A stretch of DNA of 64,000 nucleotides from Buxus sempervirens (Eukaryota > Streptophyta > Magnoliopsida > Buxales > Buxaceae). The position numbers were made by a program, and so were the translations under genes. The notes beneath the pieces were generated by a model. That model saw only the letters and a program-made list of their open reading frames with translations. It made no database searches and had not been told where the DNA came from. Location: contig OX387194.1 of NCBI GenBank assembly GCA_947561395.2, forward strand, positions 18,524,048 through 18,588,047. The letters run 5' to 3'. Shown here in pieces: positions 32,201-63,890 of this stretch. Positions within the stretch are counted from its first letter, which is position 1; each line of letters opens with the position of its first letter.

Positions 32201-32355
32201 TGGAACCGTGTCGAGATTCTCTATCCAATGATATAAAGCAAGGTGGCCAATTTTTACTTGATGAAAAAGTCAACTTTTCACCCCTTAGGGTTTGACTTTC
32301 TGTCCAGGGTTTGAAATTCTGGTTTTTTGGGGAGCGCAAAAATGAGGTGCTTACA
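29246..32355 (-). repeat. 5' LTR of element B (3110 bp)
   Basis: The boundaries are TGTGCGCACCCG and GGTGCTTACA. The right edge abuts the GCTGA target duplication. It has TATA and G-box sites (31518-31820), a splice-donor-like CAG|GTATCA near 31207, and two 147-bp units (31938-32230). The short GCGCGAGCT repeat at 30600-30645 differs in copy pattern from the partner LTR. Confidence 0.95.
31518..31820 (-). promoter_or_regulatory. LTR promoter of element B
   Basis: On the minus strand TATAAAA is at 31518-31524, with CACGTG at 31796-31801 and 31815-31820. Between them lies GCGAGCGGCAT and its near complement ATGCCGCCGCTCGC (about 31599-31640). The other LTR has the same layout at 13397-13699. 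Confidence 0.6.
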
Positions 32356-38580: not shown

Positions 38581-40058
38581 GTGTGGAAAATTAAATTGAT
38601 TCGGAATTTCGATCGGATAGTTGGCATGGTATCTTCATCCTCAGCCGAGAGAACCCGTTTCCCTAGGATAGAGAAGTGCGCCTGGGATACCCCATGGATC
38701 CGTTCTTGGACAAGGCAGCTCCAAGGGAGTGAGCAGACGGAATGGGAGCACAAATACCACATGGGACAGACGTTGTCCTTGTTAAATGTACCGATCAACT
38801 GGGATATGATCCAAGCAGCCCTGCTTTTCTGGGATCCCCAGTTGTCAGTGTTTCGATTCGGGATCAACGAGTTGACTCCCACAATTGAGGAACTTGACCT
38901 GTTCCTCCGATTTCGTGACTTAGGAGAACCCGCTAGGCCAAGCCTCAAGGAAAGCTACAAGAATGAAGCTTGCGCTTTCTTTGGCCTCTAAAGGGGAGAA
39001 TTCCAAACCTTAGGAGGTGACAAAGCATTCATTAGGGTCTTCAAAACATTCCTTGCTGAAAAAATAAGAAAAAAAAAGCAGGAAAGACCCCGGGCTTAGT
39101 TTGACACCTTTACCCTTGTGGTTCTGTCGCAAATCTTCTTTCCAACTGGGGGAGACACCATTAATTTGGCTCTCATGGAAATTGTGGATCAACTCAGGAC
39201 AGGATACCGAATCATGCCACTGATCCTAGCTCAATTGTTCCATTCCCTGACTTTGTCCAAAAATGGAACCCGGAGGTTTCAAGGTTGCGCTTCCCTCCTC
39301 CACATCTGACTGCAAGACCACCTGATGGTGTCATCACCTGTCAGTGCACACTATGGCTTAGTTCGTGACAACATTCATTGGTTGGCTCAAAGAGAGATCC
39401 AACCAGACCTACCCACTCGTGAGGATTGGTTCGACCACTTTCTCCGCCTGAAGGGAGAAACAGAAATTCGATGGTGGGGCACATACAACATTCCCTACAC
39501 CCCCATTATAGCTTCCAAGAAAAGAGAGGGACTTGCCTTGATAGGCCTTACCCATGTCGTGCCGTACTATCCGATTCAGGTTCTGAGACAATTTGGGAAA
39601 CCGCAGGGAATCCCGATCCAGGACAACCTGAGCAATTGGATCGGTCCACTCACTAAGGGACTGAGGACACAGTTGCTGACAGAGTGGAAGACAGTGTGCG
39701 TATATCGTGAAGACGTCTTCATCGAACCCCACTTTCGGGATTACGAGCAATGAATAGCTCGAGAGTTCAGCCAGGATGGACCCCCACCTCTTCGGCCTGT
39801 CGCTTTGAGTGACATTCCAGCTCCGCCCCCTAACACATATAGGGACAGGGTGGCCGAACTGTAGGAGACCCACTCCCGTATCCATCCGGCTTATGTGGAT
39901 TCGGAACGGGAGAGTAGGCAGGCCAATATGGCCTTGCAACACGAGATGGAATTGGTGCGCAAGCACGCTGAGGAGGACCGACATCTGCGGAACAAACTTC
40001 TGCAAGCCTTGAGGAGGCAAGACGTGTCCTCCCACTATGATGATGACCAACCTAGCTA
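38581..40058 (+). pseudogene. ORF1 region of element D: DUF7745-like protein with coiled-coil tail
   Basis: It matches B ORF1 closely: RFPRIEKCAWDTPWIRSW, LSVFRFGINELTPTIEELDL, LALMEIVDQLRTGYRIMPLI, YNIPYTPI. It continues further than the copy in B. VLRQFGKPQGIPIQDN, GPLTKGLR and DVFIEPHFRDYEQ follow, then a coiled-coil-like tail (MALQHEMELVRKHAEEDR). This longer form aligns with the antisense gene of C (57079-58856), including its coiled-coil end. It has a few breaks. Function is unknown. Confidence 0.8.
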
Positions 40059-44583: not shown

Positions 44584-44683
44584 TGTAGACACCCCAAATT
44601 GCACTACAGAATGAGAAAGTAATAAAAACATGTAATTAGAGCTTAAAACAAGTCAAGAATGCATAAAAACTGACAAGGCAGGC

Positions 44684-44998
44684 TTTGCCCGTATTTCATT
44701 CACGGGCCGGTCGCGCCCGAAATCGCTCTACGGTCAGGCGTGCCCGAATTGGAAATACGGGCACCATTGGACCGTAAATCATTTACGGTCACTAAAGACT
44801 CGTGCGAGTTTTATTCTTCTCTAGATTTCAGAGCTTTATCTTTAGTCCAATATCCCTTTAAATGAGCGAATTATGTCTTTTATTCGCTGAAGCCACCTTG
44901 GTTGGCTATGGATGGGCATTATCTCCAACTTTCACTCTATCTTGAGGATTAGGATATATCCTTCTAGACCAACCTTGCCCCTGTGCTTGCCTATAAAT
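44684..44998 (+). promoter_or_regulatory. LTR promoter of element C
   Basis: A TATAAAT box at 44992-44998 has CCGTA/TACGG palindromes about 200 bases upstream (for example ACCGTAAATCATTTACGGTC at 44771-44790). A splice donor follows 100 bases downstream. The promoter role is inferred from TATA and position. Confidence 0.6.
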
Positions 44999-45175
44999 AG
45001 AGGTGAGATTCTCAAGCTAAAGGCCACGAAATTTTGAAGACTCAAGAGCTCTAAGAGAAGAGAGGAATCCCTGCTGCTCTGCTTGCTGAATCCAGGTAAG
45101 TCCCTTTTCCCTTTTATTTATTTATTTATTTTTTGTTTTTAATTCTAGAAGTAATAAGATCTTCTCTATTGCTGT

Positions 45176-45452
45176 AGAATAAGGCCATATTTTATTATGT
45201 ATTCCTAAACTTGTATCTAAGTACCTCAAGAGTCTCTCTAGCCGTAAAACGTGAAGAGAAAGCTAGGGGAAAGGGGAACAGGTGGATCCCTAGAATAGAA
45301 CCCCATATTCTGTTTTTCTCTTTTCTTTTAGAATAAGGCCTTTGATTGTGTTTGTGTACCCAAACCTATCTCTAAGTACCTCAAGAGTCTCTCTAGCCGT
45401 AAAACGTGAAGAGAGAGCTAGGGGAAAAGAGAACAGGTGGATCCGTAGGGTA
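45176..45452 (+). repeat. Direct duplication inside LTR C
   Basis: Two copies of a unit starting AGAATAAGGCC and containing AGCCGTAAAACGTGAAGAGA and ACAGGTGGATCC begin at 45176 and 45330. They lie just after the splice donor, so inside the putative leader intron. Confidence 0.9.
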
Positions 45453-46405
45453 GGCCCCTATGTGCTCTAATTTGTGAGATATGGCTGTTTTTGATATCCT
45501 GATCATGTTTTAATGATTTTATTTTAAATCTGGATTAATCTTATGAGTTCATGGTGATTATAGCATGAAATCCTATTTTTCTCCTAAAATTTCGATTTTT
45601 CACACTTTTGCACCGACGACACTGTTATCGTGATTTTTGTGATATTAGGCTAAGATCCTGGATTTATCATGATCAATATGATAGACCTGGATTCAGAAGC
45701 CTGAAAGTAACTTCTAGGGTTTCATGATGTGGTTTTTGAGTTGTTTTTCACTTTTGAGAGAAGACCCTACGGTCTAAGTTTTCCCCTTTTGATGTTCTTC
45801 ATCAACGTTGGTATTTTTGGTTTTTATTTTTTGATTTAATGTGAAATTTGGGCTACATCTATGTCCTGGACTATTCAGGTTCAATTTTGAAATATTTCAT
45901 AAAAATCATATTTTTCAAGATTTCTAGAATTTAACTTGAAGCCAGATTTTTGAAGTTTTCACTTTATTTTGGTTTTATTTGATTTTATCTCAATTTTACT
46001 TTAATCATGAGACCCTAGGAATGGTATGATCATATTTGAAAGTTCTGGATCAATCAGGCTATTCGTATGAAAAAACCATACATTTTTGTCTTTTTTGTGA
46101 TTTTTCATGATTTTTATAGCAAGCCCTTTTTCCTTTGAAAAACATGAACAATGCCTGGCAACCACCTTGTGTGGATGAATAGGGGTGCCTAACACCTTCC
46201 CCTGTTCATAACCTAATCCCCTTACCCATCTCTGGTTGTTTTTTTAATCGGGTTATTTTAACCCTAAATTTGCCTTTTTGTGCTTATTTGAGATTTTTGG
46301 TGTCCATTCACACCTAAAAAGAATGGTGGCGACTCTTTGTTTTTAATGAATCCCGCGTGATGATCAGGAAAGTCATTAAATTGATTTTTTCCCATGTCTC
46401 ACAAC

Positions 46406-46425
46406 TGGCGACTCTGCTGGGGACT
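46406..46425 (+). other. Primer-binding site of element C
   Basis: TGGCGACTCTGCTGGGGACT, two bases after the LTR. It is the same form as in B, D and E even though the LTR is unrelated, as expected for the Tat/Ogre lineage. Confidence 0.88.
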
Positions 46426-47653
46426 TGTGGATTTCAGCCTTTTGGTGTTTAGTTCATGTTTTGATATTTTTGGATTTGCTTGCTATTTTGTGTTTTTAGC
46501 ATGTTGTTGTTTTGCTTGCTGTTTGGTGTTCTTAAGCATGTGGGATATGTTTTAAATCTGATTTATTGCTTAAGAATTCATGGGGGTAGAAACATGCTTA
46601 ATTTTGACTTATAGGATTGTTTCTAGAAACATGCGTATGGGAGGTTTATTTTGATAAACCATGCTTATTCCTTGCTGTATTTTAGTATGCATGTTTTAAT
46701 TTCCAGCATGTTTTCTATGATGTATTTTGGATATATAATATGAGCACATGTTGGCATGATTTGGATGATTTTTGTGAGCATGATTAAGTGCTATAGGGTG
46801 GCTTGTTTACTTACGTTTACTTGCTTTAATATGCTCCCTATATGCCTTGGTTTGTTTATGCATGGCTGCGAAAAGTGTGGCAAGGGTTGGGACATTGTGA
46901 ATGCACCCTATTTTTACAATGCACTGTGCACATTTTATTTTTTTACACAGCCTACCTATAACCTATAGGAAGTTGAACCAGAATGTGTGTAGCTTGGCGC
47001 ACTGAAGTCGTTACTTCGGAAAGCGAAAGTGAAAACATTCACCTTAGAACTTTAGGCCAATGATGTTATGATAATGTGGATCTGGGATTCTGGTCATCAC
47101 TAGGCTTGAGTTCTAAGTTGCCATTAAGCAAAAACCCAAAACCCCTACGCTTGAAGGTGGAGATACACGTTTTTGGCTAAAGTACACAATTACGTGGGAA
47201 TATGGGTTTGTAATTGAGGGAAGGCCGTTTGCATGGCTTACAAACCAGGACATAATGTGGATGCCATATTGAAGGTAAACAAGGTAACAAGGTAGTCCTA
47301 TTTTTCTACATTGTTTTCATGTCATAAGGGTGTCATGGTGCCCATTGGTTTGGGGACAAAATTGGTCCCAAGTATGCATGGTTCCTAAGCATGGTGTAGC
47401 CCATTGGAAGAGTCTCTAACTCTGTTTAGAATCAATCCTACCCAATGTTTGTACAAGAGGCAACAAAAGGGTACCAAAGTATGAGTATGATGTCTATTTG
47501 GAGGGAACATATGCCCTCCTAAGCATGTATTTTTGCAAATATGTCAAAGTCCACTTTGGGACAGCTTAGAGGCCTAGCATGGGTGAACCGTATGTTTGGA
47601 TGAGCAATCAAAGTGATCAAACCATGAAAAAACTGAAGAAACATAAAGCAGCT
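46426..47653 (+). other. Leader of element C
   Basis: About 1.2 kb of T-rich, non-coding leader. The longest open frame is 70 aa (46756-46968) and resembles nothing known. No ORF1 is found here, unlike in B and D. Confidence 0.65.
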
Positions 47654-47820
47654 CCGTAAAACCGTAGTTATAATACGGGCTGGGCTCGCCCGTAGTAACT
47701 ATACGGGCTGGGCTCACCCGTAGTAACTATACGGTCTGGGCTTACCCGTATTAATCATACGGTCACGGCTTGCTCGTAATTTAAATACGGGCACAGCCGG
47801 ACCGTACTGTGTATACGGTC
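47654..47820. repeat. CCGTA/TACGG palindrome cluster in the leader of C
   Basis: About five tandem units of some 30 bases with TACGGGCTGGGCTC and CCCGTAGTAACTA. Alternating CCGTA and TACGG sites form short inverted repeats. The same motif occurs at 44684-44790, 58981-59107 and 63789-63890. Confidence 0.92.
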
Positions 47821-47945
47821 TCATCAGAGAATTCAATTTTAATCAGTTTTTTCTCAACTAAATCCCGTTCCTTTAACCTCTAAATGATGAAAGGGAGATG
47901 AGTTTGAATAAAATGCTTAAAAAATGTAAATAAATAAATAAAAAC

Positions 47946-48716
47946 CTTTTAGGCCCCTGAAAGACTTTGAATTTCAGATCTTTTTTCAAAAATATCCTCG
48001 GGGCCTCTTAAAGCCTTTGAATTTCAGACTTTTTCTCAAAACACCCCTGGGCCTCTGAAAGGCTTTGAATTTCAGACTTTGTCCAAAAAAATCCTTGGGC
48101 CTCTGAAAGCCTTTGAATTTCAGACCTTTTTCCTTTGGGCCACTGAAAGCCTTTGAATTTCAGATCTTTTGGGCCTCTGAAAGCCTTTGAATTTCAAACC
48201 TTCTTCCTTTTGGGCCTCTGAAAGCCTTTGAATTTCAGATCTTTTTCCTTTGGGCCTCTGAAAGCCTTTGAATTTCAAACCTTCTTCCTTTTGGGCCTCT
48301 GAAAGCCTTTGAATTTCAGATCTTTTTCCTTTGGGCCTCTGAAAGCCTTTGAATTTCAGATCTTTTTCCTTTGGGCCTCTAAAAGCCTTTGAATTTCAGA
48401 TCTTTTTCTTTTGGGCCTCTGAAAGCCTTTGAATTTCAGATCTTTGGGCCTCTGAAAGCCTTTGAATTTCAGACTTTTTCTCAAAAACTCCTTGGGCCTC
48501 TTAAAGCCTTTGAATTTCAGATTTTTGTCAAAAAAATCATTGGGCCTCTGAAAGCCTTTGAATTTCAGACTTTTTATTAAAAAACTCCTTGGGCCTCTGA
48601 AAGCCTTTGAATTTCAGACCTTTTCCAAAAATATCCCTGGGCCTCTGAAAGCCTTTGAATTTTAGACCTTTTTCAAAAATCCCCCCGGGCCTCTGAAAGC
48701 CTTTGAATTTCAGATC
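47946..48716. repeat. Minisatellite of about 28-55-bp units upstream of gag in C
   Basis: Eighteen copies of the core CTGAAAGCCTTTGAATTTCAG, with variable linkers such as ATCTTTTTCCTTTGGGCCT. The core carries CTGAAA and TTTCAG as an inverted repeat. Open frames across it are by-products of the repeat. Confidence 0.95.
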
Positions 48717-48896
48717 ATTTTCTCTTTTTTGGGACCTGTTGGAAGCCCTAGAATATTCCAACAATTCAATTAAATTAAAAAAAAAGAAGCAAATAAAAAA
48801 CAAATCCAAACTCGTGTTTACCCAGCTTGCACATAGGCATTCCTAGGTAGGTAAAGGAGATTAAATGGGCATTAATATATTCTGTTTATTTTTGCC

Positions 48897-48898
48897 AG
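48897..48898 (+). promoter_or_regulatory. Putative splice acceptor just upstream of gag in C
   Basis: TTTATTTTTGCCAG|GTACTAA. B and D have a matching AG|GTACCAA at the same place. With the donor at 45095 this would remove most of the leader, including the minisatellite. Confidence 0.5.
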
Positions 48899-48951
48899 GT
48901 ACTAATACACTTGCAATCATTGCTCCTGTAACCAGATCAAGAGCTCGCGCC

Positions 48952-50364
48952 ATGAATCCCATTGAGAATGAAGATGATGCTCCTCATCCAGATGTTGCCC
49001 TGTTCCAAGAGCAAGTAGCAGGACTAGCCCGAATGCTAGAGAACATACTGTCCGTGCAGGCTCAACAAATGCAGGCCCAAAATCAAGCATCCACTTCCAG
49101 CCCTGCACCTCCACCCCAAATCAATATTCCACCTCCAGTTCAACCTATTCCTGAACCCATCTATGAACCCACCCCTGAACCTATACTGATTAGGGATGAG
49201 ACAGTTGAGTCAGACAAAGCTAAGGAAAAGGAAAGGATGAGGGAAGAAGTTGAAAGGAAGTTCCTGCATAAACTAGAAATGATCCAAGATGAACTTAGAG
49301 AAGTAAAAGGGGTAAGCAACTTCGGGGGCACCAATTTTGAGGACTTATGCCTATACCCCAATGTTAACCTGCCAGCTAAGTTCAAATGCCCAGACCTAGA
49401 CAAGTATGATGGTACAGGCTGCCCCATGAGCCATTTGAAGTTGTACTGTGGTGCCCTATGCCAGTTTGGGCGGGATGAGGGTGTTCTGATTCAGCTCTTC
49501 CAAAGGAGCCTTACTGGAACCGCTTTAAGGTGGTTCGCTACTTTGGACCATGGAAAGATTAGAAGATGGAAGGACCTAGCAGATGCCTTCCTGGCTCAAT
49601 ACCGGTTCAATTCAGAGATCGTGCCAGACAGGTACGATGTAATGAGAATGAGCAAAGGAAGGGATGAGACTGTAAGGCAGTATGCCAAGAGATGGAGGGA
49701 GACAGCTTCTCAGGTAAGGCCACCTATGCTAGAACAGGAGATGATTTCTACATTCATCGGTACTTTGGGCCAACCATTCTACAACCATTTGGTGGGTCAG
49801 ACCACCACGAATTTTGCTGCCTTGGTTCAAGTGGCTGACCGAATTGAAGACGGGATCAGGTCAGGCAAGATAATTGACCACTCTGCCATGGTTAGTCAAC
49901 AAGACCCTAATCTAAAGAAAGGAAATGGGATGAAGAAGAATGGGAACAAGAAAGAAGGGGAGGTGAACATGGTACAGCCATCATCTGGTCCTAACAAGCC
50001 CATACAAATCAACATACCTGCTCATTTTCCTACTCCATCTGCTCCATCTACCCAGGCCCCCATGAGGGTTAATGTTCCAACAGCACCATCAGACCAGAAA
50101 AGGGTTTTTACTAAAGAGGAGAAGGTTGCCTACTTCGCAGCAAGGAGAAATAGGGTTTTTACCCCTATTCCAATGACTCCTTCTCAGTTGCTGCCCACTT
50201 TATTGCAGGCAGGGTACATCACCTTAAGAGAGCCCAATCTGAATGCATCTAAGGGGAGAAATTATGACCCCTCCACTACTTGTGATTTCCATATGGGTGC
50301 ACCTGGGCACCCTACTGACAAGTGTTGGCCTTTGAAACATGCTATTCAGGATTTATTAGACTAG
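48952..50364 (+). CDS. gag: gag of element C
   Basis: The start was chosen at MNPIENED (48952), the first methionine after the putative acceptor. The same frame is open from 48865 if the leader is not spliced. The product is about 470 aa. The order is a P-rich N-terminal region, an acidic coiled-coil-like stretch (about residues 100-140), a Retrotrans_gag core (CLYPNVNLPAKFKCPDLDKY, RWFATLDHGKI, AQYRFNSEIV, YAKRWRETAS, FIGTLGQPFY), a linker, RVFTPIPMTPSQLLPTLL and the zinc-knuckle CDFHMGAPGHPTDKCW. It looks whole. Gag forms the particle that packages element RNA. Confidence 0.92.
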   Translation: MNPIENEDDAPHPDVALFQEQVAGLARMLENILSVQAQQMQAQNQASTSSPAPPPQINIPPPVQPIPEPIYEPTPEPILIRDETVESDKAKEKERMREEVERKFLHKLEMIQDELREVKGVSNFGGTNFEDLCLYPNVNLPAKFKCPDLDKYDGTGCPMSHLKLYCGALCQFGRDEGVLIQLFQRSLTGTALRWFATLDHGKIRRWKDLADAFLAQYRFNSEIVPDRYDVMRMSKGRDETVRQYAKRWRETASQVRPPMLEQEMISTFIGTLGQPFYNHLVGQTTTNFAALVQVADRIEDGIRSGKIIDHSAMVSQQDPNLKKGNGMKKNGNKKEGEVNMVQPSSGPNKPIQINIPAHFPTPSAPSTQAPMRVNVPTAPSDQKRVFTKEEKVAYFAARRNRVFTPIPMTPSQLLPTLLQAGYITLREPNLNASKGRNYDPSTTCDFHMGAPGHPTDKCWPLKHAIQDLLD

Positions 50365-53300
50365 AATACCCTGTCTTTCAATACAGGGGCTCCCAATCCT
50401 CCAAGAACTGATATTGGACAAAACCCGCTGCCTCAGCATCATGGGGCAGGCCCATCTAATGTCATAGGGGGCAGGCCCATCTAATGTCATAGGGGTCATC
50501 TCCTCTGACAAAATAACCTTTGACCCATCTCAATTAATTGCTCCTATAGGGACAACGGTCAGAGTGTATTTTGACAGAAGAAATGAAGGCAAGGAAGTAA
50601 ATGTAATTTCAAAAGGAAATGATAGTGCTGCAAAGAACATTAGCTCATCTCTGGGCCGGGTCTCATCTCTCATGGCTCAAATGAATATTGCAAAACCACC
50701 TTTGGTTATCAATTGCAGTCCATCTACTTTTACTCCACCCATTCAGTCTAAGCCACCATTGGTCATAAACTGTGACCCTCTTAGTGCATCCGTCACTTCT
50801 GCAACCCCTCAACCAAAACAACTTCCACCATTGGTTGTTAATGTTCCCTTTACTCAGACTTCCACAGCCAAGTCCAAACTTCCCCCATTAGTGGTAAACG
50901 TCCCTAAGCCTGCTTATTCTGAATCGGCTGTACCATGGAACTACAGTGAAGCCTTTACCACTACATTCCCTGCAGCTGAAAGCAAGAAGGAAGTAAACCT
51001 CATGACAAGGTCAGGAAAAGGTATTGGGGAGGAAGAAAAACAGAAAGAAGTGGGAAAAGAAAAGAAGGAGGAAGAGAAAAATAAAGGAAAGGCCAAGGTA
51101 GGGGAAGATGCCCCTCAGGTAGTTGACAATGAGGCTGCTGATCTCATTAAGATCATAAAAAAGAGTGAGTTCAATGTTGTTGAGCAGTTAAACAAGGTCC
51201 CTGCCTAGATCTCAATCTGGGATTATTGTTGAATTCTGAAAAACATAGGGAATCTTTGTTAAGGGTACTTCAGGGGGCCCATGTGCCTACAAATATTGAA
51301 CCAGAACAACTAGGCCGGATGGTTGGGCAGATTTTATCCCATAATGTTATAACCTTTTCTGAAACTGAAATCAGCCCATCAGGATACCATCATGTTGATC
51401 CTTTGCACATAGCTGTGCTCAGTAAGGGTTGCATGATAGCCCGGGTTTTAATTGATAATGGGTCGGCTCTGAATGTCTGCCCATTGATAACCTTTGTTAA
51501 GCTCGGTCTAGAGCAAAATAAAATCAAACAAAATGGAAGAATCATAAGAGCTTTTGATAGCTCTAAAACACACTCCCTAGGGGAAGTTGAACTGCCGGTC
51601 ACAATTGGACCATATATTTTTAACATCACATTTGAGGTGATGGATATACCTGCAGCCTTCAATCTACTCCTAGGAAGGCCGTGGATTTATACAGCTAGGG
51701 CTATACCATTTACCCTCCACCAGAAAGTTAAGTATATAAGAGGGCAAAAGGTGATTACTATCCTAGTTGAGAGCTTGGTTCCTCCCATGTGGTCCCCTGA
51801 TGTACCCTTTATAAACATGGAAATGACTGCAGACAAGTTGACATTTCACTCTTTTCAATTTGAAACTGTCAATTTTATACCTGGGGGGTATCAGGAAAAA
51901 GAAGGAAAGTTGACCTATGCTGAGAAAATGGTTAGGAAAATGATGGGAAAGTATAATTTCCACCCTGGAAAAGGTCTAGGGGTTAACCAGCAAGGAAGAA
52001 TAGAACCGGTAAAGGCTAAGAAGCTGGTCCACAGAGCAGGATTGGGGTCCAGATCAAGAGTTTGGAAGGGACAGAAGCAGGAGAAAGGCATGAAATTCCC
52101 TCACATTAGAGAAACTTTTCCAAAGCTTTCTCATATGATTCAGCTGTCTCCTCCTCAGGATCAGTCCAAACCACCATACTATAATGTCAATCCTTTTCAA
52201 AAGCCTTATGTCCCTACCTTGCAACCATATGTTCCACCTCCACCTACCCAAGCAGTGGTTGAGCCTGAACCACAGGCAGAGCGGGAGCAAGATTTTTCTG
52301 AGGACATTGGAGCCTTTTTTGCCATGACTAAAGGCAACAAAGAAGGAGCAAATGAGCTACCTTTTATTGATTGGGCTGCAGTACAGGTTCCATCTAGGAC
52401 CAGCCCTATAGAAGAAGCAGGCGATGCAACTCACCCAGTATTGGTGATTTCATATGCGGATCCTGAGCTTGAGGAGCAGGCTTGTATCCCTACCCCAGAT
52501 TCTTTTATTTTGAACAATTGGGAGGAAACTCCCCTTACTTTTTGGCAAACGGACATGGCTTCCAAAAAAAAACTCCATTAGTGGAAGGCCCTTTTCCTGA
52601 AGGTTTTAATGAGCCTTCGTCTTCAGGAAAAGATTTTTTAGAAGGCTCTCAAAAAACACAAAAAGATTTTTCAATTTTTTATAGAAAAGATAAATTTTTC
52701 AAAAAGGTCAAAACCATTTATGAACCATATAAGCAAACGGAATTGGATCGGGTTGAGTATGACTTCAACCTCGAGCTCGACTTTGACCTAATGGGGGTTG
52801 AAGAAGAGACCGAGGATGAAGAAGACGACCCTCCAAAAGAAATCACATATCAATTAGAGCGTCATGAAAAGGGGGTCCAACCCAATATTGAAGAGACCAT
52901 ATTTGTAAACCTAGGGACCGAAGATGACCCACAAATAGTGAAGATTGGGGTATGCTTATCTGAGGTACAACATGATGAAATGATACGATTCCTAGCTGAT
53001 TATAAAGATGTGTTTGTTTGGTCCTATCGAGATATGCCTAGATTAGACACGGACATGGTTGTACATAGGCTACCGATTCTGCCAGATGTTAAGCCAGTTA
53101 AGCAGAAATTGAGAAGGTTGAAACCTGAATGGACATTGAAGGTCAAAGATGAAGTGGTTAAGCAATTCCAAGCCGGATTCTTGGCGGTCTCCACATACCC
53201 TGAATGGCTTGCAAATATAGTACCAGTGCCAAAGAAGGATGGAAAGGTCAGAATGTGTGTAGACTATAGAGACTTGAATAAGGCAAGCCCAAAGGATGAT

Positions 53301-56182
53301 TTTCCACTTCCACACATAGACATATTAGTGGACAACACTGCAATACATAGCCTGTTCTCATTCATGGACGGCTTCTCAGGGTACAACCAAATTAAGATGG
53401 CTAAGGAAGATCAAGAGAAGACGGCCTTCATTACACCTTGGGGTACCTTCCACTACACTGTCATGCCATTTGGGCTTAAGAATGCAGGGGCAACCTAACA
53501 GCGCGCCATGACAGCCTTATTCCATGATATGATCCATAAGGAGATGGAGGTCTATGTAGATGATATGATAGCCAAATCATGTAAAGAAGAAGACCATTTG
53601 ATCAACTTGAAGAAGGTATTTGACAGACTTAGGAAATACAGTCTAAGGCTTAACCCTGCAAAATGTGTCTTTGGGGCTACATCAGGAAAATTGTTGGGAT
53701 TTATATTAAGCAGAAAAGGAATTGAGATTGACCCAGCCAAAGCTAAAGCAATCATTGAAATGCCATCACCTAGAACGGAGAAGGAAGTTCGGGGTTTCCT
53801 TGGAAGGATTCAATATATAAGCCGGTTCATAGCACAGCTCACCGCTATCTGTGAACCAATTTTCAAACTTCTAAGAAAGAATAACCCGACGGTCTGGAAT
53901 GACGATTGCCAAGAAGCCTTTGACACAATAAAGGAGTATCTATTGAACCCACCTGTGCTAGTGCCACCAACCCCAGGAAGACCATTGATCTTATACTTGT
54001 CAGTTTTGGAGACATCAATGGGATGTGTTTTAGGGTAGCATGATGAGACAGGAAGAAAGCAAAGGGCGATTTACTACCTAAGCAAGAAGTTCACAGAATA
54101 TGAAGCAAAGTATTCCCCTTTGGAAAAGACTTGTTGTGCTTTAGTATAGGCAACTCAAAGACTGAGACACTATTTCCTTAGTCATTCCACCTTATTGATA
54201 TCCCGAATGGATCCTTTGAAGTACTTGTTTGAAAAACTAGCTTTAATTGGCAGAACAGCAAAGTGGTAGTTGTTACTATCTGAATTTGACCTCACCTATA
54301 TCACACAGAAAGCCATTAAGGGTCAAGCCATTGCGGATCACTTAGCTGCACATCCTCTACCGGAATACCAACCTTTGAAGACCAATTTTCCTGATGAAGA
54401 AATACTGTTCACAGAAGAGGAGGAAAATGAAAGCTCATGGCAAATGTTCTTCGATGGGGCCACCAATATGAATGGAAATGGAATAGGGGCTGTTTTGGTC
54501 AAGCCAGATGGGTCGCATATCCTAATCGCAGTAAAATTGAGATTCCAATGTACAAACAATATAACAGAATATGAAGCATGTATAATTGGGTTACAAGCAG
54601 CCTTAGATCATGAAGTAGAGGAACTTGACGTATATGGAGATTCGAGTCTTATCATCTTCCAACAACTGGTGAATGGAAGACTAAGGATCACAAGTTGATC
54701 CCCTATCACCAGTATTTGGAAGAAATAAGCACCAAGTTCACTCGAATTTCTTTTAATTATATGCCAAGAGCCAAGAACCAATTCGCAGATGCTTTAGCAA
54801 CATTGGCTTCAATGGTTAGTATGCCAGAAAGTGTTGATATTAAACCACTAGAAATTGAAGTTAGGGATGAACCTGCTTATTGCCTTGTTCTAGAAGGGGC
54901 ACCAGAGGAAGAAGAACCATGGTTTCAAAACATTAAGAATTTCCTAAATGATTGGAGTTTGCCTAAAAATGTCACTTCTACAGAGAAAAGAACGATACAG
55001 AGGTTGGCAGGACAGTTCTTACTAAGTGTTGGGCAGTTGTATAAGAGATCACACAACGATATCCTACTTAGATGTGTTGCCAAGAATGAATCAGAAAGGC
55101 TAATTGATACGGTACATGGAGGAGTTTGTGGACCCCATATGAACGGGCACATGCTTGCTAAGAAGATTCTACGATTGGGATATTACTGGTCGACTATGGA
55201 ACACGATTGCTATATACATGTCAAAAGGTGTCATTTATGCCAAGTATATGCTGATAATAAGAATGCACCTCCAAGTGCATTGCATAACATGACATCTCCA
55301 TGGCCCTTCTCTAAGTGGGGCATAGACGTCATTGGAATGATCTCTCCAAAGGCATCAAATGGACACAGATTTATACTTGTAGCAATCGATTATTTTACCA
55401 AGTGGGTAGAAGTAGCCTCGTATGCAAATATCACAAGTAGTCATGTTCTTAAGTTTGTAAAGCACAACATCATTTGTCGCTATGGTTTGCCAAGTGCCAT
55501 AATATCAGACAATGCTTCGAACCTTAAGAATAAGGATATGAGGAAAATGTGTGAACAGTTCTAGATTACCCATCATAAGTTAGCTCCTTATAGACCAAAA
55601 ATGAATGGGGCAGTGGAAGCAGAAAATAAGAACATAAAGAAGATCTTTCAAAAGATGGTAGTGAGTTTCAAAGATTGGCATGAAATGTTGCCACTTGCCC
55701 TACATGCCTACAGAACCTCAATTCGGACTTCTATAGGGGCAACCCCATATTCCCTAGTCTATGGAATGGAAGCAGTGTTACCAGTGGAAGTGGAAATACC
55801 ATCACTAAGAGTGCTAATGGAAGTTGAATTAGAAGAAGCTAAATGGATACAGTCAAGACATGATCAACTCAATTTAATAGAAGAAAAGCGTTTGAAGGAG
55901 CTTTCTCTTGGCCAATTGTATCAGAAGAGGATGGCCAGGGCTTACAATAAGAAGGTGAAGCCCAGAACTTTCCAAGAAGGAAATTTGGTATTAAAGAAGA
56001 TCTTACCTTTTTTAGAAGACCCACGTGGAAAATTCAAACCCAATTGGGAAGGGCCTTATGTTGTCAAGAAGGTCCTATCAGGAGGTGCTCTCATCTTAAC
56101 AAAAATGGATGGGAAGGATTTTCCTGAGCCAACAAACTCTGATGCAGTAAAGAAATATATTTCCATGAATGAATATTACTAG
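50365..56182 (+). pseudogene. pol: Protease and pol region of element C
   Basis: After a P/K-rich linker, the domains follow in order. The aspartic protease is near 51430-51700 (VLIDNGSALNVCP, NLLLGRPWIY), then a G-patch-like YNFHPGKGLGVN near 51955. The RT is at about 53130-53760 (VDYRDLNKASPKDDF, FMDGFSGYNQIKMA, YVDDMIAKS). The first RNase H is at about 53900-54350, and the second, archaeal-type RNase H at about 54430-54670 (FFDGATNMNGNGIGAV, VYGDSSLII). The integrase is at about 55090-56150 (HMNGHMLAKK, CHLCQVY, WGIDVIGM, ISDNASN, MNGAVEAENKN). The whole makes the enzymes for reverse transcription and integration. About half a dozen breaks are present. Tat/Ogre elements are known to use splicing between parts of gag-pol, so not every frame change need be damage. 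Confidence 0.93.
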
Positions 56183-57078
56183 GAAATGATCTGAGGCCAT
56201 CTTTCCTTATTTCCCAAAATTTTTATCCCTTGTCAAGCCAATTTGAGCCTGTTCGTCTTCTTTGATAAACCTAAGCTGGACTTACAGTTTTATACTGGGG
56301 CAAAGCCAAATAGGGGCAAAGCCAATAGGGGCAAAAAGAGAAAAAATAAAGAAAAGAAAAATAATGGCAAATGAAAGCCAAATACAAGGAAAAAAGGGAA
56401 ATGGGATTGAAATCATCAAGACTGTAAGTCCGATTGACCTATTTTCACACTTAGAAAATTTTGAGCCTTTAATGCCTTTTATTTCATAGACCGAGCTTAG
56501 CCTTTGTTTCGTCCTATTCTTAAGCCCTCGGTGATTTTAGTATATTCATTCAAATATCAGAGTAATATTGGTGATGACGGAATACAGAAGGCAGCCCTAG
56601 TGAAAACCATAATTGGCGCTAGGGGCAATAGAGGCATGTAAAAAAAAATTCAAAGGATTGAGTTGATCGTGTGGTCCAAGGTGAAGACAGAATGAGCATA
56701 AGCAAGTGAGCAGATTAGCAGGATTAGTCATAAAAGTACAGCCATTAGGGGATGATTCTAAAGGTCGTAGGATAGACAGATTTGGTCTCTCCCTATTGAT
56801 TGGGCCACCATTTTCATTATGCAACCTGATTTTAATTCCTTTGATTATATGTGATTAAGTGCTTTGGATTGGCTTTTCAAAAAAAAAAAAACTATACTTT
56901 TGGCCAATGATGAGAAATCAAGTAATTTTCATAAAACTTTGGTTTTTACAAGCATCTGAGAATTCTGAGGCCAATAATATAAAACCTACTTTAGTATTAA
57001 AACCTTTGTCTTTCCATTATTGGAGTTTACTTTTGTACAAAGGTATGAAAAAAGAAAAAAAATGAATGATAAAAGAAT
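56183..57078 (+). other. 3' region after pol in element C
   Basis: Matches A 33430-34130: an A/G-rich tract near 56330-56400, then a GACTGTAAGTCCGATTGACC block and the ACCGAGCTTAGCCTTTG...TTTCGTCCTAT block (56455-56530). From about 56860 there is no match to A. No gene is seen. This is where the sense transcript of pol and the antisense gene would meet tail to tail. Confidence 0.7.
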
Positions 57079-58856
57079 CTAATCCCTATGCTTTAGCTGC
57101 TCCTCAAGCTCACGAATCCGTGCTGCCTGTGTTGCAATGATCCCTGAAGCTCCTGGTGCACCTGGATTGCCTAGAAAGGAGATGACCTCATCTGAAAGTG
57201 ACAGCTTGAGCTTTAAAGTCCTAAGGTCAGTCAAAGTATCCTGATATTTCCTGCGAATCGAGCGGACTTCAAAGCAACGAGCCTGCCTTTGTTCTTCAAG
57301 ATTCTTTTCCATGGCAATGCAGCGAGATGTTTGCTCTTCAAGCTGCCTCTCCATATCAATACCCTTTATCCTGAGTTCCTGGGCTTCTCGTATCCATATT
57401 TTTTGAAGCCGTTTGTGGGTTGCTCTTTCAGACTCCAGGATATCTTCATAGGTAGGGGGAAGAACTGCAAGAGGATCCTCTGGTACTGGGGCATGACTCT
57501 GCACCTACTCTTTGATCCAAAAGAGATAATCTTTTACATGAGACTCAGAAAAGACTGGACCCCGCAGAAAACGGACATATGACCACTCATTCATTAATCG
57601 AGCATTCAGCCCCATGGTGGTTGGTGTAAGTGGTCCAAGGAAGTCCTCATATCCAGATGGGATCGTAATCCCCTGTGCTACTCCAAACTGTCGAAGAACT
57701 CTCAAAGGGAGATAAAGTACAGCAGATTTCAAGCCTGCTAGGACCAGAAAATTTCTATCTCTAAAGCTGATCACTGTCTCTGGATTAGGCTGATAAGTGC
57801 CACGCCATCTCACCTGATCATCCTGGAGAGTACCTAAGAAAGTGAACCAACCTTGCTTACCACCATGGATGTTAGGACAGCCCCTGTTGCTCATCAAAAC
57901 AGGAACTTTCAATCATGGAAAGAAGCGGCGAGTTATTTCTTCAATCTGACTCAAGTGGTCCAATAACCAAAGCTGCAGAAAAAGGGATGTATCTTGATTC
58001 AGTTCAAAAAAAGAAAGAAAGAGAAAAAAGAAAGAAAGAAAGAAAAAACAAATAAAAAAAAGAAGAGAAAGAAAAAAAAAAGAGAAGAAAAAGAAGAAAA
58101 TAAAAAAAAAGAAAAAAAAAAAAGAGAGAAAAAAATTTTCTATCTTATTTTTCTTACCTGTAGGATAGGGGCACATGCAAGGAAGCGCTTCTTCTTCCTA
58201 AAATAGCAATCAGTTAGAGCTTGATACATCTCTGCCAAGATCATAGGAGCCAATCTCTCACCTTCCCTAACCTGGCAGATAACCGAGATAAGAGCCAAGT
58301 CAACCTGGTCGTCAGCCCGTGGAAAAAACAGTTGATTAACCACTATCAGGGTCAATGCATTGAACCTGGCATCCTTGTCCTCTCCCCTTAGAAGCTTTTC
58401 AGTCAAAAAGGTTTTAGACAAGGTCAGAAGAGTGTCAGAATCCCCTAAGTCTTTCTTCCCTATACCTAAGAAGGTGGAAGCTTCCTTTCTGTAGCTAGGC
58501 TTTAGGGGTGGGTTTACAACTTTTTCAGAAAATCTTAAGCCAAGGATGGTTTCAATCTCTTCTATAGTAGGAGTCAACTCTTTATCATCAAAACGGAAAA
58601 GATTTAGCTCAGGAACCCAGTGCCCAATAAGAGCTTCAATGATTTCCCACTTAAAGGGAATTTTAGGGATGTGTAGGATATGACCTAAGTGGATGGAATC
58701 CCAATGACTTTCCTCAGCAAGAGTCATGGAGTTAACCCATCTGTCATAGAAAGAATCTACAATGCTATACCTGGTGAGATTAGGAGGTTTGGATCTAACA
58801 TGTTGTCTTGCAGGAGGAGATTCAACGGCAGAAGAGAGCAGGGCAAGGAAAGCCAT
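57079..58856 (-). CDS. Antisense gene 1 of element C: DUF7745-like protein with coiled-coil end
   Basis: The start is at MAFLALLSSAVESPP (58856), 93 bases after a TATA box. The first block (to about 58158) has a DUF7745/PMD-like core: LNLFRFDDKELTPTIEEIET, KTFLTEKLLRGEDK, LALISVICQVREGERLAPMI. A likely intron with CAG|GTAAGA and TCTGCAG ends spans 57973-58157. The second block has LPLRVLRQFGVAQGITIPSG, FLGPLTPTTMGLNARLMNEW and VFSESHVKDYLFWI. A coiled-coil tail follows (LESERATHKRLQKIWIREAQ ... IRELEEQLKHRD). It aligns end to end with ORF1 of D. Extra antisense ORFs after pol are known in the Tat lineage. Function is unknown, and there may be a break. Confidence 0.75.
57995..58140. repeat. 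Purine-rich GAAA microsatellite in the intron of antisense gene 1
   Basis: GAAA/AAAG-rich tract of some 145 bases. On the minus strand it is a long pyrimidine tract just upstream of the TCTGCAG acceptor, as expected in a plant intron. A poly-lysine open frame here is an artefact. Confidence 0.85.
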
Positions 58857-58948
58857 GGAAGCGCCAAAGAAGCCAAGGAAAGCGAGAAACGACGTACTCA
58901 GGGAGTTTTCAAATTGTTAAAAGTGTCACAATGACGTTCCCCATGAGT

Positions 58949-59107
58949 TTATATAGAAAAAATTGTTAAGGCTGTAAAATCCGTAATTAGAATATGGGCA
59001 TATCGCACCCGTATAGAAAATACGGACACACTATGACCGTGCAAAATTTACGGGCGCAGTGCACCCGTATAAACGTTACGGGCGCGACCTGCTCGTACAT
59101 TAAGTAC
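58949..59107 (-). promoter_or_regulatory. Putative promoter of antisense gene 1
   Basis: On the minus strand TATATAA lies at 58949-58955. Directly upstream (58981-59107) is a cluster of CCGTA/TACGG palindromes of the type found in LTR C. The positions fit a self-standing promoter; activity is not shown. Confidence 0.6.
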
Positions 59108-59325
59108 GTTCCTCCCGAAAAATGCAAAAAATAGGCAATTTTAATTTCTTTGTTTCCCTAAGCTTCACCTGTCCCTGTTTTAACATTCATCATGTGATAA
59201 AAGCTGAAAAGAAAGAAGAAAAGAACACAAATGAACACAAATCAAACTTCTTTTATATATATATGAATGTTTACATCAGTTTTGTCAAAAAATACAAATG
59301 TACATGAAGAATCCTAATCTACTGT

Positions 59326-61968
59326 CTATGCAGGTCCGCCCCTACGGCCATGGCCTCGTCCTCTGCCCCGACCACGGCCTGAAGATCGCCTGCGCTCAAA
59401 GACATGCCGCACAATATTGCGGGCTGTGCTACGAGTCATCCTGCTCAAAATAGACTGAATATCATGCCACATATACAAAGGCACAAGGCCAGTAGTGGGA
59501 TGATCAGGAGGAACGTACCCTGAAGTATCTACATATCCTATAGACTCAGTATCCGAATCAGTACGGGATGAATCGACCGAAGGATCAGCAGTAGCAGGCG
59601 TCTCCTCTACAGCCTCCATAGCAGGACCAGCAGGAGCAGATGTCCCAGGTACATCAGCATCAGGACCAGGCTCCACAGGATCAGCTGTAGCCTCCTCCAT
59701 CACCACGGCCTCCACGGCAGGCTCTACCACAACAGCATCCCTAGCCGACTCCATATCCACATCCGCAGATGCCACAGGAGCAGTCTTAGGTACTGGGGCA
59801 GACTCTGGCACATCCTCAGCAGCAGGAGCAATATCAGCCTCGATCTTAGGCTCTGTTGCAGGTGCCTCTACCGGACTGGGAGAAGTCACAAACTCCACCC
59901 GTGCCACAGAAAATACCTCACCCCGAAGATGCATGGGCACAGGTGAAGCAGGTGAAGAAGGGTCGGCTGTGCATTAGATGGACCCTCCTGGCCCTGTGCT
60001 CTGGCTAGCTGCCCCCGGAGGTCTGAGATCGTGATATAGAGGGCATCCCGCTCAGCAATCGCAGCATCACGCTGGCGCTCTAGATCAGCATATCGAGACC
60101 AGATCTCTGCCAACTGAGCCTCCTGAAATAGAAAAGAAAGAAGTCAGAAAAATGCTAAGTTCAAATGAAATGGAAATAGAAGATCACAAAGACAGAAGGC
60201 GTACCGTCGTGTCATAAGCCCTGATCACTACCCCTCCTATCTCCGTGACTCCACCACGGACAGGCATAGGTGGCATGAGGCACCCAACTGAAGCTCGCCT
60301 GAACCAGGCGTCATAGTCACCCTCCTCTAATAGTGTCTCTGCCTCAGTCCAATCTAGGAACTGGGTAGGATCTACAGGCATAGGAGGAAAGGAGGGGGAA
60401 GTATCTGGAGGAATGGCAGGAATCCGCGGCTCTCCCACATGCTGAAAGAAGAAGCGCTCGCCGCAATACCAGATGATGCCCATCTGACCAATAAAGAACT
60501 GGTATCTTTGTCGTCTCTGGTCAGGGACAAAGGCATCATCTCTGGCTGCATGCAGGGCCAGCACCTCATGAATGTCCTCCATCCTGGGGACAAACAGCTG
60601 AAAAACAAAACGGGATATTAGATATGTGATTCAGGAAGAACAGGAAAGAAGAAAGAAGAGGAATTAATGTAGATTACCTCAGAACGGTATAGCCTGTCCA
60701 AGTGGGCCCGAGCGAACCTAGGACGACTCTTTTCAGAGTCGTGCTCTACATGACACCATCTACGTGCCATGGGATACGTCTCCTCAGACATCGTAGAGGT
60801 AGGGCGGAAATAGGGTATATAAACCCTAGCAAAGAACTGCAGAAAGAAGAAAAGAGTCAGAGGAATAGAAAAAGAGAGATAGAAAGAAAGAGAGAAAGGA
60901 AAAAAGAAGAGAAATAGATATTTCACCTGCAAGAAGGGCCAGAAGAACCTGCACCCAACTCCAGCCCCTCTGGAAGTAGAGAGGCCGCTCACTGATCGTC
61001 GCAGGCCAGCCAGAATGGTACCAAAAATGAGCGGGCCCCAGGCATACCTCCTCGCTCGATGAAGATCTCCCAGTAAGCTCAGAAAATGAGGACTAACCGA
61101 AGTCGTGTCCTCTGGGAAGAAGCAGGAGCCCATCATGTATAGAAAAAGAAATCGAAAGGCATATGGGAAAACTAGATCACCGGCGGTAAGCTGGCCAAAT
61201 TGCCTCACCCTGAAAGTCTCTCTCAACCATGTCAGAGACAATCTCGCTCTCCCTCTATCCCAAGCCAGATCCCGATCTCAATATCTGGGAAGTGGAAGCT
61301 CAATGTCTCCGGGAAAAATCTCTCGAGCAGTGCAGCAATGAGGGCCCGATCCATGCGCACATCCGGAATAGTAATAAATAGGCCAAAGCCATATAAGCCT
61401 AGCTCCTGGCGGTAGGCTGAACTGCAGGCTCCCAAGAATCTAATGAAGTTGGCCCAGCTCCCTCTGAAATGGGACATCGGATACTCCAAAGGGATATCCG
61501 CCCTAATGCACGTTGAGGGATGAGTCCTCAAGCCATGCAAGAGGTCGATATCCCTAATTTGGGCAGCCACCTCCTCAAAAACCTCAACCCTGGTCCTAGC
61601 CTCATCTCTGCCACGGCCTCCTCTGCGGCCTCCTCTACGGCCCTCATCATGGCCTCCATCTCGGCCTCCACCTCGGCGCCTACTACGGCTCCTGTCTCAG
61701 CCTGAAGTCTCAACTGCCGAATAAGGAAATAATTGAAAGAAGGAAAGGATCAAGGGGATGTTTTTGTAAAAGAATATTAAATTCGAAAAGAGTTAGAGTA
61801 TACCTCTGGGGTCGCCTCACGCGAATCCCCAGAAGGGAGATCTGGGATATCAGAATCCGAATCTCTTTCGGCCCTCGAGGACGAGGCCACATCAGCAGGA
61901 TCACGCCTTACCCTCAAAGAGGAAGGCTCATCTGCAGGATCTCTGGAAGCTGATCGAAGGCAGGCCAT
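59326..61968 (-). CDS. Antisense gene 2 of element C: plant mobile domain (PMD) protein, multi-exon
   Basis: Coding similarity comes in about five blocks with GT-AG borders between them: 61968-61804, 61701-60927, 60836-60678, 60597-60205 and from 60122 to 59326. The start MACLRSASRDPADEPS opens a D/S-rich head. The PMD marks are ALIAALLERFFPETLSFHFP, then LTWLRETF and RFLFLYMMGSCFFPEDTTSV, then SLLGDLHRARRYAWGPLIFG. Later come an acidic/charged middle, a coiled-coil-like segment (YADLERQRDAAIAERDALYI), an A/P/E-rich linker and an RG-rich end (SGRGRGRGRGHGRRGG). PMD proteins occur both as host genes (the MAIN/MAIL type) and in transposons. Here the position points to an element-borne copy. It may not be fully open. 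Function is unknown. Confidence 0.65.
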
Positions 61969-62425
61969 CTACGGTCTAAACCAGGGAGTTGGTTAATTAT
62001 TCTTGTTAAAATTTTTAATTGCTTAATTTTTATTTTAACCAAGTTTAATTGATTGGCAGGAAGAAGAAAAAATGGAGAATGGAAGAAAGTGCTTCAGATA
62101 CTCCTGATCAAAGCAAGAATCAACTGAAGGAGTTTATTTTCTGTCTTAAGATATTTTATTTAGTCTTAGCTTTAACAATGAAATTATATAAGAAAATTAT
62201 ATAAGAAGTACAGGCTTCTTGTATGTTTTTTTTATTAGGAATGAAAAAATGTGTGCTAAGGATTTATTCTAATATTTTATTTTTGGTTTCAGGATAAAAG
62301 ATCAAGCCTACTTGTGCTGATACTGAGCCACTCAAGGGCAAAGATTCCTAGCTCTCATATTTGCAGAAAAATCAGATATAAAAGAGACAAGAATCCCAGT
62401 CTCAATCAAAGGAAATCAGCCATTG
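61969..62425 (-). other. Sequence upstream of the PMD gene
   Basis: About 450 bases, AT-rich, without a gene. It could be intron or 5' leader of the PMD gene if transcription starts near 63780. Confidence 0.4.
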
Positions 62426-62433
62426 GTCAATAC

Positions 62434-62984
62434 TAGGGCTGGCAATGGGTCGGATATATATCCGAATCCGACCCGAATCCGATCCGAAAATCTCGAATCT
62501 GATCCGAAAATATAGATCCGCGGTTTGAATACGGATATCGGATTTCGGATCCGACCGAATTCGGATCCGAATCCGAATATGTCCATATCCGATCCGAAAA
62601 AGATCCGAACAGAAATTAACATATACTTTTCATTAAATCATTGGTAAACTTTGTATAAACCATGGTTGAACTATCCTTATTCATATCTTGCTTTAATATT
62701 TATATGGCTCATTAGTTTTGATAATTAAAATTTGCTTTAATAGTTAAACTTAACTTTTGAATTTTAAGTTCAAATTGGATCTAATTCGGATCGAATTCGG
62801 ATTTCGGTTATTTATTCGGTCGAATTTCGAATTCGGATACATTATATAAATTCGGTTTCGAATTCGGATTCACATATAAAAGATCCGTCGGATTTCAGAT
62901 CGAATTCGGATATCGGATTTTTATTTTCGGTTCGGATTCGGATCATAACATATCCGTACCGTATTCGACCCGTTGCCAGCCTTA
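62434..62984. mobile_element. hAT-type MITE, 551 bp
   Basis: The terminal inverted repeats are TAGGGCTGGCAATGGGTCG and, at the other end inverted, TAAGGCTGGCAACGGGTCG. An 8-bp target duplication GTCAATAC lies on both sides (62426-62433 and 62985-62992). Both arms are rich in GGATCCGAAT/ATTCGGATC-type motifs, so the element can fold back on itself, with an AT-rich centre (62610-62760). It has no coding capacity. The 8-bp duplication and end sequence fit the hAT superfamily. Confidence 0.93.
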
Positions 62985-62992
62985 GTCAATAC

Positions 62993-63780
62993 ATGAATTT
63001 ATCAAGATACAAATCAAAGACTTAAGAAACAGATAAGCATGATTGGAAACAGTGAACATGAAAATAGAAATTGTACAACATTCAAGTTGATGGAATTGCA
63101 TAGCAGAAGTTCACACATGCAAGAATTTTGCACAGCAGTTCTGGAGGAAACATATAACATCCACAGTAATCAATCAGAAGCAGGAAAAATGCAAAAAAGT
63201 GAATTCATATGATCAAGCATGAAACTATCATTTGGAGATAGAAGACTCGTCTAGTGAATGCTATCACTATTTAGCATAAACTGAGGATGCAGCAATTGGG
63301 CATGGATTGGATATAAACTAGTAATTCATGAGGAATTCATATCAATCAAGAGCAAGCAATGAGCATGGAATACAATGAGCATGGTATAGAAATAATCAGC
63401 AGCTCAAATTGCAAAATAGTTGGGGATTGCGGCCACTTACTGGATTTAGTCGAAATAGAGGAAAATCGACAATCAAATGGGAGGTTCTTACACTACCGAA
63501 ACTTCAAGGAGTGTCCACAGTCGATTGAGGAAAGATGAGGCACGCCAAAGACTTGATCACAGTCGCAGCAATAAAAAAAAAAAACAGGAACAGTCGCTGG
63601 AAATAGGAAGGCTTACCGGAGATAATGAGAATCGCCGGAGGAATAGTCGCCAGGGAACAGGAGTCGTCGGACTGTTGAAGAAGAAGAGAGAGGCCCGGAG
63701 AAAAAGTTACGGTCTCAGAGGATTAAGGGCACAAATGCGAGCAGAAGAGGAATAGGTCGCGGTCGTGGTCTTAAGAAGAG
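62993..63780 (-). other. Possible 5' leader of the PMD gene
   Basis: About 790 bases without a recognised gene. The minus strand has a C/T-rich stretch (63480-63760), then a TCCGGTAAGCC donor-like site near 63617, as in plant 5' leaders. A 92-aa frame on the plus strand (63477-63755) resembles nothing known. Confidence 0.35.
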
Positions 63781-63788
63781 AGTAAAAT

Positions 63789-63890
63789 CCGTAAACACAG
63801 TACGGGCTTCAGGTGACCATGGAGGTAATACGGTCCCGTTTAACCGTGATTCAAATACGGGCAGCATCAGTCCGTAATGAAAATACGAGC
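63789..63890. promoter_or_regulatory. CCGTA/TACGG palindrome cluster at the right end
   Basis: It contains CCGTAAACACAGTACGGGC, AATACGGTCC...AACCGTGATT and AATACGGGCAGCATCAGTCC. It is the fourth cluster of this motif within element C. By analogy with 58981-59107 it may mark the promoter of the PMD gene. No clear TATA box is seen. Confidence 0.45.

Follow-up and report, generated by a model that had tools for sequence, protein, structure and literature searches.

What protein, if any, reads a palindromic motif that recurs at the promoter-like places of a single retrotransposon? The question is raised by a 64,000-nucleotide stretch of the Buxus sempervirens genome (contig OX387194.1, positions 18,524,048 to 18,588,047; hereafter the window), which holds a long terminal repeat (LTR) retrotransposon that we call element C. 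This element has gag and reverse transcriptase (RT) on the plus strand and two minus-strand genes between pol and the 3' LTR: antisense gene 1, which encodes a DUF7745/PMD protein, and antisense gene 2, here PMD2. Our preferred reading, held tentatively and with less than even confidence, is that the motif clusters are operator arrays for one trans-acting protein, most likely PMD2, which probably opens promoters against silencing.

Phase-locked arrays in element C

In each cluster two 7-bp half-sites, GCCCGTA (F) and TACGGGC (R), alternate in an array with 7-bp spacers between them, so that a half-site nearly always starts every 14 bp and the pattern repeats every 28 bp. Four lie in the window (no strand assigned):

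44687-44790: LTR array, 8 half-sites with one step of 13 bp; the TATA box at 44992 follows about 200 bp downstream
47660-47820: leader array, 12 half-sites, all steps 14 bp; between the primer-binding site and gag
58979-59111: antisense gene 1 array, 10 half-sites, all steps 14 bp
63787-63890: fourth array, degenerate, 6 half-sites in chain; upstream of PMD2, immediately ahead of the 3' LTR

A fifth array lies in the 3' LTR just past the window (L035:345-448). A preliminary description of this DNA had placed motif clusters at the four window sites, and all proved to be phase-locked arrays, the fourth in degenerate form; the phase-locking itself, the 3' LTR array and the TATCCGG class described below had been overlooked. 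The suggestion that the clusters mark antisense promoters fits gene 1, where a minus-strand TATA box (CTATATAAA, 58948-58956) stands 22 bp from the array. It fits PMD2 less well: some 1.8 kb separate the fourth array from the probable coding start downstream of it, and visual inspection revealed no TATA box. Other copies keep the motif at the LTR, leader (for example, L036:6466-6584) and gene 1 sites, and two related copies of the fourth array were seen (L001:2017-2100 and L003:917-1000).

With a chain score that allows skipped sites, only the four arrays pass the threshold in the 64 kb. No array appeared in 100 first-order Markov simulations of the window, and none of 60 letter-permuted motifs gave one in the window. 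The fourth array is weak when the register is fixed: under this stricter score it reaches 31, the other three 51, 48 and 36, and the best place elsewhere 28. Across the 676-Mb genome the triple CCGTA-N7-TACGG-N11-CCGTA occurs at 11,242 forward and 11,213 reverse places, versus 0 and 0 for a reversed-pattern control, and replacing N11 by N13 leaves 7 and 6. The motif is thus far from randomly distributed, and the genome controls, altered spacing, simulations and permuted motifs together rule out a chance origin of the arrays.

The half-sites are also the conserved part of the arrays. Among 14 distinct copies of the C LTR array, half-sites have a mean pairwise diversity of 0.096, compared with 0.330 for spacers and 0.165 for flanks. 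The corresponding values for 11 copies of the antisense gene 1 array are 0.101, 0.295 and 0.147; the test was run with and without L002 and L078, and the nine copies left without the two odd ones give 0.071, 0.281 and 0.120. Two LTR arrays of a second lineage, introduced below, give 0.032, 0.128 and 0.163, and 0.060, 0.210 and 0.167 (six copies). Half-site diversity is therefore lower than that of spacers and flanks in every test, and spacer diversity exceeds that of flanks except in one second-lineage array. When the mask is slid by 1-7 bases, diversity rises at every shift in four of five tests (two of the five share sequences); the exception is the C LTR, where a 2-base slide gives 0.092, lower than the annotated register. 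In column shuffles the C arrays reach the floor of p = 5e-5, and the second-lineage arrays give p = 0.008-0.009. CCG is a methylation context in plants, and because the half-sites contain it, neutral decay would on general grounds be expected to be faster there.

Other half-site classes and a second lineage

A genome search for DUF7745 genes, in which 118 of 5,751 candidates were scored, supplied 25 loci for examination, and 12 more were chosen by strand and variety. An array lies just upstream of all 16 antisense-type DUF7745 genes examined (window included); antisense orientation to pol was seen in the window and in L060 and was taken from similarity and layout for the other genes. Ten of the 16 belong to the GCCCGTA class (the window, L060 and eight others, 87-93% amino acid (aa) identity to element C), among them L078, half of whose array has been replaced. 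Five others (L041, L049, L056, L080 and L085; 69-75% aa) have AACCGCA/TGCGGTT half-sites in the same 14-bp alternation, and the last (L077, 80% aa) has TATCCGG-N9-CCGGATA palindromes every 39 bp, beside a TATA box. Both additional classes are abundant genome-wide: AACCGCA triples occur at 2,916 and 2,932 places versus 1 and 0 in the control, and TATCCGG palindromes at 28,399 versus 5, or 6 with the gap shortened by two. When five TATCCGG arrays were picked with motif and position as the only criteria, each proved to lie upstream of a DUF7745 gene. A further candidate class, with half-sites starting with T in the 28-bp geometry, was dropped, as it has one place in the genome versus two in the control (T start only).

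The placement of the arrays recurs as well. Relative to the LTR, those of element C lie at +3.0, +14.3, +19.1 and +19.7 kb. Among the places listed, five TATCCGG elements of contig C1 carry theirs in the LTR, at +3.7-3.9 kb, at +14.9-15.6 kb and in the second LTR at +20.1-20.7 kb, with an extra place at +19.5-19.8 kb in three of the five. Three AACCGCA elements have arrays in the LTR and at +3.7, +13.4-13.9, +15.7-16.2 and +21.0-21.3 kb, one of these places being unlike element C. Each listed AACCGCA or TATCCGG element has one class and one geometry throughout.

A second lineage, with DUF7745 proteins at 31-38% aa identity to that of element C, was found at 21 of the 25 loci examined first and at one of the 12 added later. 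Its DUF7745 gene is in sense orientation and follows the primer-binding site (read in L047; others by similarity). In two of its members, L068 and L069, the LTR bears GCCCGTA arrays immediately ahead of the TATA box. Neighbouring elements in the window provide the following:

38626-40056, plus strand: sense DUF7745 gene of a neighbouring element, 73% aa identity to the L047 protein
35359-35623, no strand assigned: TATCCGG-N9-CCGGATA palindromes in the LTR of the neighbouring element, in 39-bp steps within clusters, just upstream of a TATA box at 35637
7087-7330, no strand assigned: TATCCGG-class palindromes in a minus-strand LTR, with three more at 5320-5420

Since second-lineage LTRs bear both GCCCGTA and TATCCGG arrays, the same codes recur in two lineages. 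A third window element, nested and on the minus strand, has LTRs at 11117-14109 and 29246-32231 (97.8% identical) and a DUF7745 gene at 27718-26642.

Two young copies bear on how the arrays are used. The second-lineage element at C3:7556942-7574000 (L097 and L068) has LTRs that are 100% identical over 850 bp, GCCCGTA arrays in both of them, long open pol frames (RT 70%, integrase 62-67% aa) and an intact 498-aa DUF7745 frame; recent activity is suggested. The element from C1:7034426 (10.66 kb between its LTR arrays) keeps its LTR and leader arrays; a search of it for DUF7745 and PMD2 found nothing up to E 0.01. Its LTRs, compared over 914 bp, are 99.9% identical, and it has probably moved recently. 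A recent move without the antisense genes would mean that the array reader was supplied from elsewhere, that is, that it acts in trans. The earlier proposal that one factor reads a site shared by sense and antisense promoters is well supported by phase-locking, half-site conservation, the family-specific switch of half-site at dispersed places and this non-autonomous copy, which keeps its arrays.

Candidate readers of the arrays

Element C offers two candidate proteins of its own, encoded between pol and the 3' LTR:

44584-46403, plus strand: 5' LTR, matching 3' LTR pieces in L035
48865-50361, plus strand: gag open frame (Pfam PF03732, 1.7e-11)
51184-56179, plus strand: pol region in several frames; RT confirmed by PF00078 (1.6e-12) in 52473-53495
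57082-58916, minus strand: antisense gene 1, DUF7745/PMD protein, in three stretches (58916-58143, 57912-57505 and 57504-57082)
59329-61696, minus strand: antisense gene 2 (PMD2), composed of several exons; start judged by eye, the first ATG being probably at 61968

The first stretch of gene 1 matches PF24924 (2.5e-21) and PF10536 (1.5e-11); the second falls below the cut-off for both (0.0013 and 0.0015), and the third has no Pfam match. PMD2 matches PF10536 in 61277-60621 (1e-11) and, below the cut-off, in 61696-61235 (3.8e-4), and two further stretches have no Pfam match. With PF10536 scores of 44.5 bits (gene 1) and 45 bits (PMD2) against a cut-off of 34.9, both proteins belong to the PMD family. 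Their coding region (57082-61696) sits on the minus strand between pol and the 3' LTR, as in those Tat-type Ty3/gypsy elements that have antisense open reading frames. A roughly 550-bp insertion with inverted-repeat-like ends (GGCTGGCAA..TTGCCAGCC, 62430-62980) separates PMD2 from its upstream array.

The divergence of an element-encoded reader should follow the half-site code. Measured against element C, the TATCCGG family is nearer than the AACCGCA family in RT (82 versus 75-76% aa), protease (68 versus 64%) and DUF7745 (72-81 versus 69-75%). Only PMD2 reverses this rank, its exons being at 62-74% in the AACCGCA family and 42-52% in the TATCCGG family; the same exons of two other GCCCGTA-class elements are at 77-90%. 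The AACCGCA family also shares the 28-bp geometry of element C and has the nearer code. An element-encoded reader, as the preliminary description had envisaged, is plausible at most: PMD2 passes this one check, and DUF7745 fails to diverge with the code. Across both lineages, none of 188 aligned DUF7745 columns distinguishes proteins of the GCCCGTA class from those of the TATCCGG class; of the second lineage's two TATCCGG entries, one is the window gene 27718-26642, whose own LTR has no known array. DUF7745 was rejected as the specificity determinant because it has no class-diagnostic columns and the motif classes cut across its phylogeny.

From the regular alternation of half-sites we infer a cooperative protein chain. 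One sequence-specific protein would bind the arrays cooperatively and in phase, acting in trans on all promoter-like regions: both LTRs, the leader and both antisense genes. If this protein is PMD2, it would activate the gag-pol transcript as well as the two antisense genes, its own and that of its partner DUF7745, probably by holding promoters open against silencing, as VANC proteins do; activation or anti-silencing is suggested by the promoter position and the VANC precedent. Elements with the same arrays and no PMD2 would borrow the protein in trans. A more ambitious form, which we consider rather unlikely, is a self-encoded transactivation or anti-silencing circuit of plant Ty3/gypsy elements in which PMD2 polymerises along the alternating half-sites at every promoter of its family, PMD2 and the arrays switch code together, and elements of another lineage free-ride. 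New families would then arise when PMD2 and all arrays change code jointly, and the free-riding elements would copy a family's code into their LTRs. The 28- and 39-bp periods correspond to 2.67 and 3.71 turns at 10.5 bp per turn (our own arithmetic), a nearly equal helical phase, as expected of one protein architecture.

Several observations weigh against PMD2 as the reader. The rank reversal comes from one AACCGCA, one TATCCGG and two other GCCCGTA elements, i.e., one comparison among three families, and the PMD2 tail varies within the GCCCGTA class (46, 54 and 70% aa). No array was found in four 1.1-1.3 kb stretches at the starts of three other kinds of PMD gene (L070-L073), and the LTR of the third window element, which has DUF7745, lacks an array of any of the three known classes. 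Structure prediction yielded no DNA-binding fold: the AlphaFold model of the intact L047 DUF7745 protein has a mean predicted local distance difference test score (pLDDT) of 38.9, only a C-terminal coiled coil (within residues 403-468) is confident, and no PDB sequence matched up to E 1. In the young element C3:7556942-7574000, the 2.2 kb between pol and the 3' LTR gave no PMD2 or DUF7745 match (7563092-7567000 unseen). Arrays without PMD2 in the stretch seen would mean that a foreign PMD2, the element's own DUF7745 or a host protein is used; this result slightly lowered our confidence in PMD2 and slightly raised it for a host protein and for DUF7745. Distance to a listed PMD2 place says little either way, as the list holds 150 of 5,506 candidates: none of 42 second-lineage genes has such a place within 15 kb, but antisense-type genes, too, are rarely near one (1 of 28 within 6 kb).

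A real possibility is that one or a few host DNA-binding proteins read CCG-core inverted arrays and that different retrotransposons converged on them. The motif classes common to two lineages whose DUF7745 proteins are about 35% identical argue for such a factor, as does the young C3 element, which has arrays and pol and, in the stretch seen, no PMD2. We know of no PMD gene in elements of the Sirevirus kind, which would likewise favour a host reader. In Sireviruses, CGG-CCG palindromes that lie upstream of the TATA box and the env-like gene and have a core shared by distant species suggest the same (PMC2829016, in part). A host factor is less easily reconciled with the single class and geometry within each listed element, with PMD2 tracking the half-site class in one comparison, or with the absence of T-initial half-sites from the 28-bp geometry. 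That DUF7745 rather than PMD2 reads the arrays seems improbable. It is present in both array-bearing lineages, has an array directly upstream of its antisense-type gene and is found in the C3 element, where the stretch seen holds no PMD2, but the lack of class-diagnostic columns counts against it, and the DUF7745 of the TATCCGG family is nearer that of element C than is that of the AACCGCA family.

We regard as very improbable that the palindromes act as hairpins in RNA or single-stranded DNA, for example as small-RNA sources, rather than as protein sites. Their inverted symmetry and the position of the leader array inside the transcript speak for hairpins, and the LTR palindromes of Sireviruses have reportedly been discussed in these terms. 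Excess complementarity was detected in one of three R-F spacer pairs and in a few half-site pairs (z 2.7-3.6, inflated by shared ancestry). F-R spacers have none (z -0.8 to -0.1 in 125 units; 0.1 to -3.4 in 24 units of the AACCGCA class), which favours protein binding over hairpins. Selection for hairpins is thus unsupported for F-R spacers, with weak signals elsewhere. Passive tandem repetition by slippage, without meaning, is already contradicted and retains almost no probability. One LTR copy carries an exact one-period (28-bp) duplication, but slippage does not account for conserved half-sites with variable spacers, for the same motif at dispersed places or for another motif at corresponding places elsewhere.

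Related systems and further features

Comparison with published systems, based on parts of the articles cited, reveals partial parallels, of which the Sirevirus palindromes and the VANC/VANDAL system come nearest. The repeated motifs (RMs) of Sireviruses are palindromes built on a CGG-CCG core; each LTR holds several upstream of the TATA box, more copies lie upstream of the accessory (env-like) gene, and the flanks are family-specific. Two of them resemble the TATCCGG and AACCGCA classes by eye (Bousios 2010, PMC2829016). The arrays of element C likewise cluster CGG-CCG palindromes upstream of the LTR TATA box. Sireviruses are, however, Ty1/copia elements with a sense env-like gene, and the parts of PMC2829016 drawn on describe no fixed 14-bp alternating register, named reader or antisense PMD genes. 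VANC/VANDAL systems, too, have a short motif densely arrayed in non-coding regions, there of an element encoding the reader; the motif changes between related families, with tandem gain and loss (PMC5735166, PMC10398659). A family-specific motif densely arrayed in non-coding parts is equally a trait of the array families described here. VANDALs are DNA transposons with motifs in one orientation (same sources), whereas element C is an LTR retrotransposon whose half-sites alternate in inverted orientation, with PMD proteins, half-site classes that recur in two lineages and a reader that is a candidate only. The antisense stretches of element C match DUF7745/PMD or nothing in Pfam, VANC not being among the matches.

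Retand and Grande are Ty3/gypsy elements with antisense open reading frames (ORFs), and Grande expresses a nuclear protein from its own promoter (PMC11963269, PMC7264820). They differ in having TRP28 or other domains, and promoter arrays go unmentioned in the parts of these articles used. The TRP28 domain (PF04195) of the Retand lineage had no match in the seven antisense stretches of element C that were scanned. MAIN and MAIL1, with the DOWN motif, resemble the present case in tying a PMD protein to a short promoter motif: this motif is enriched at genes down-regulated in main and mail1 mutants, direct binding not being shown (PMC7156037, PMC9899485, in part). Unlike PMD2 these are host genes, and the example motif CATGCAGTTT is unrelated to the arrays. 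The open-access titles and abstracts searched included none on such arrays with PMD genes, subscription papers being largely outside their scope. PMD proteins encoded by gypsy elements fall into clades of their own, and what the domain does is given as undetermined (PMC5418596, in part); the function of plant retrotransposon antisense ORFs is given as unknown (PMC7264820, in part). The arrays would offer a concrete, abundant and family-specific candidate target for both kinds of protein. They bear on whether LTR retrotransposons encode sequence-specific regulators like those of VANDAL elements, and on whether families share or steal one another's code.

The domain order of element C reads as gypsy, with gag and RT confirmed by Pfam. 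Protease, RNase H and integrase are presumably encoded by the other pol frames, labels that Pfam did not confirm; a scan of the last one (55565-56179) gave no match. From 46406 there is a sequence that we take to be the primer-binding site. The 3' LTR begins 242 bases past the window end and is 93.8% identical to the 5' LTR over 388 bp and 91.5% over 1441 bp (pieces in L035), being split by a foreign insertion (L035:630-3147). Element C, in turn, seems to sit within an older element. Tandem repeats of 48-bp period (CTTTGAATTTCAG) lie 5' of gag at 47932-48722.

L070 and L071 (C3:45638801-45643500) represent another PMD family, as two tandem genes with open frames of 575 and 590 aa; many listed members of this family have no stops. 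A generic scan picked up a 29-bp direct repeat (..GGGCATTTTCGGGATTT..) at about 1690-2100, which we discounted as a tandem repeat. A tandem array of units of about 107 bp occupies 22224-26337.

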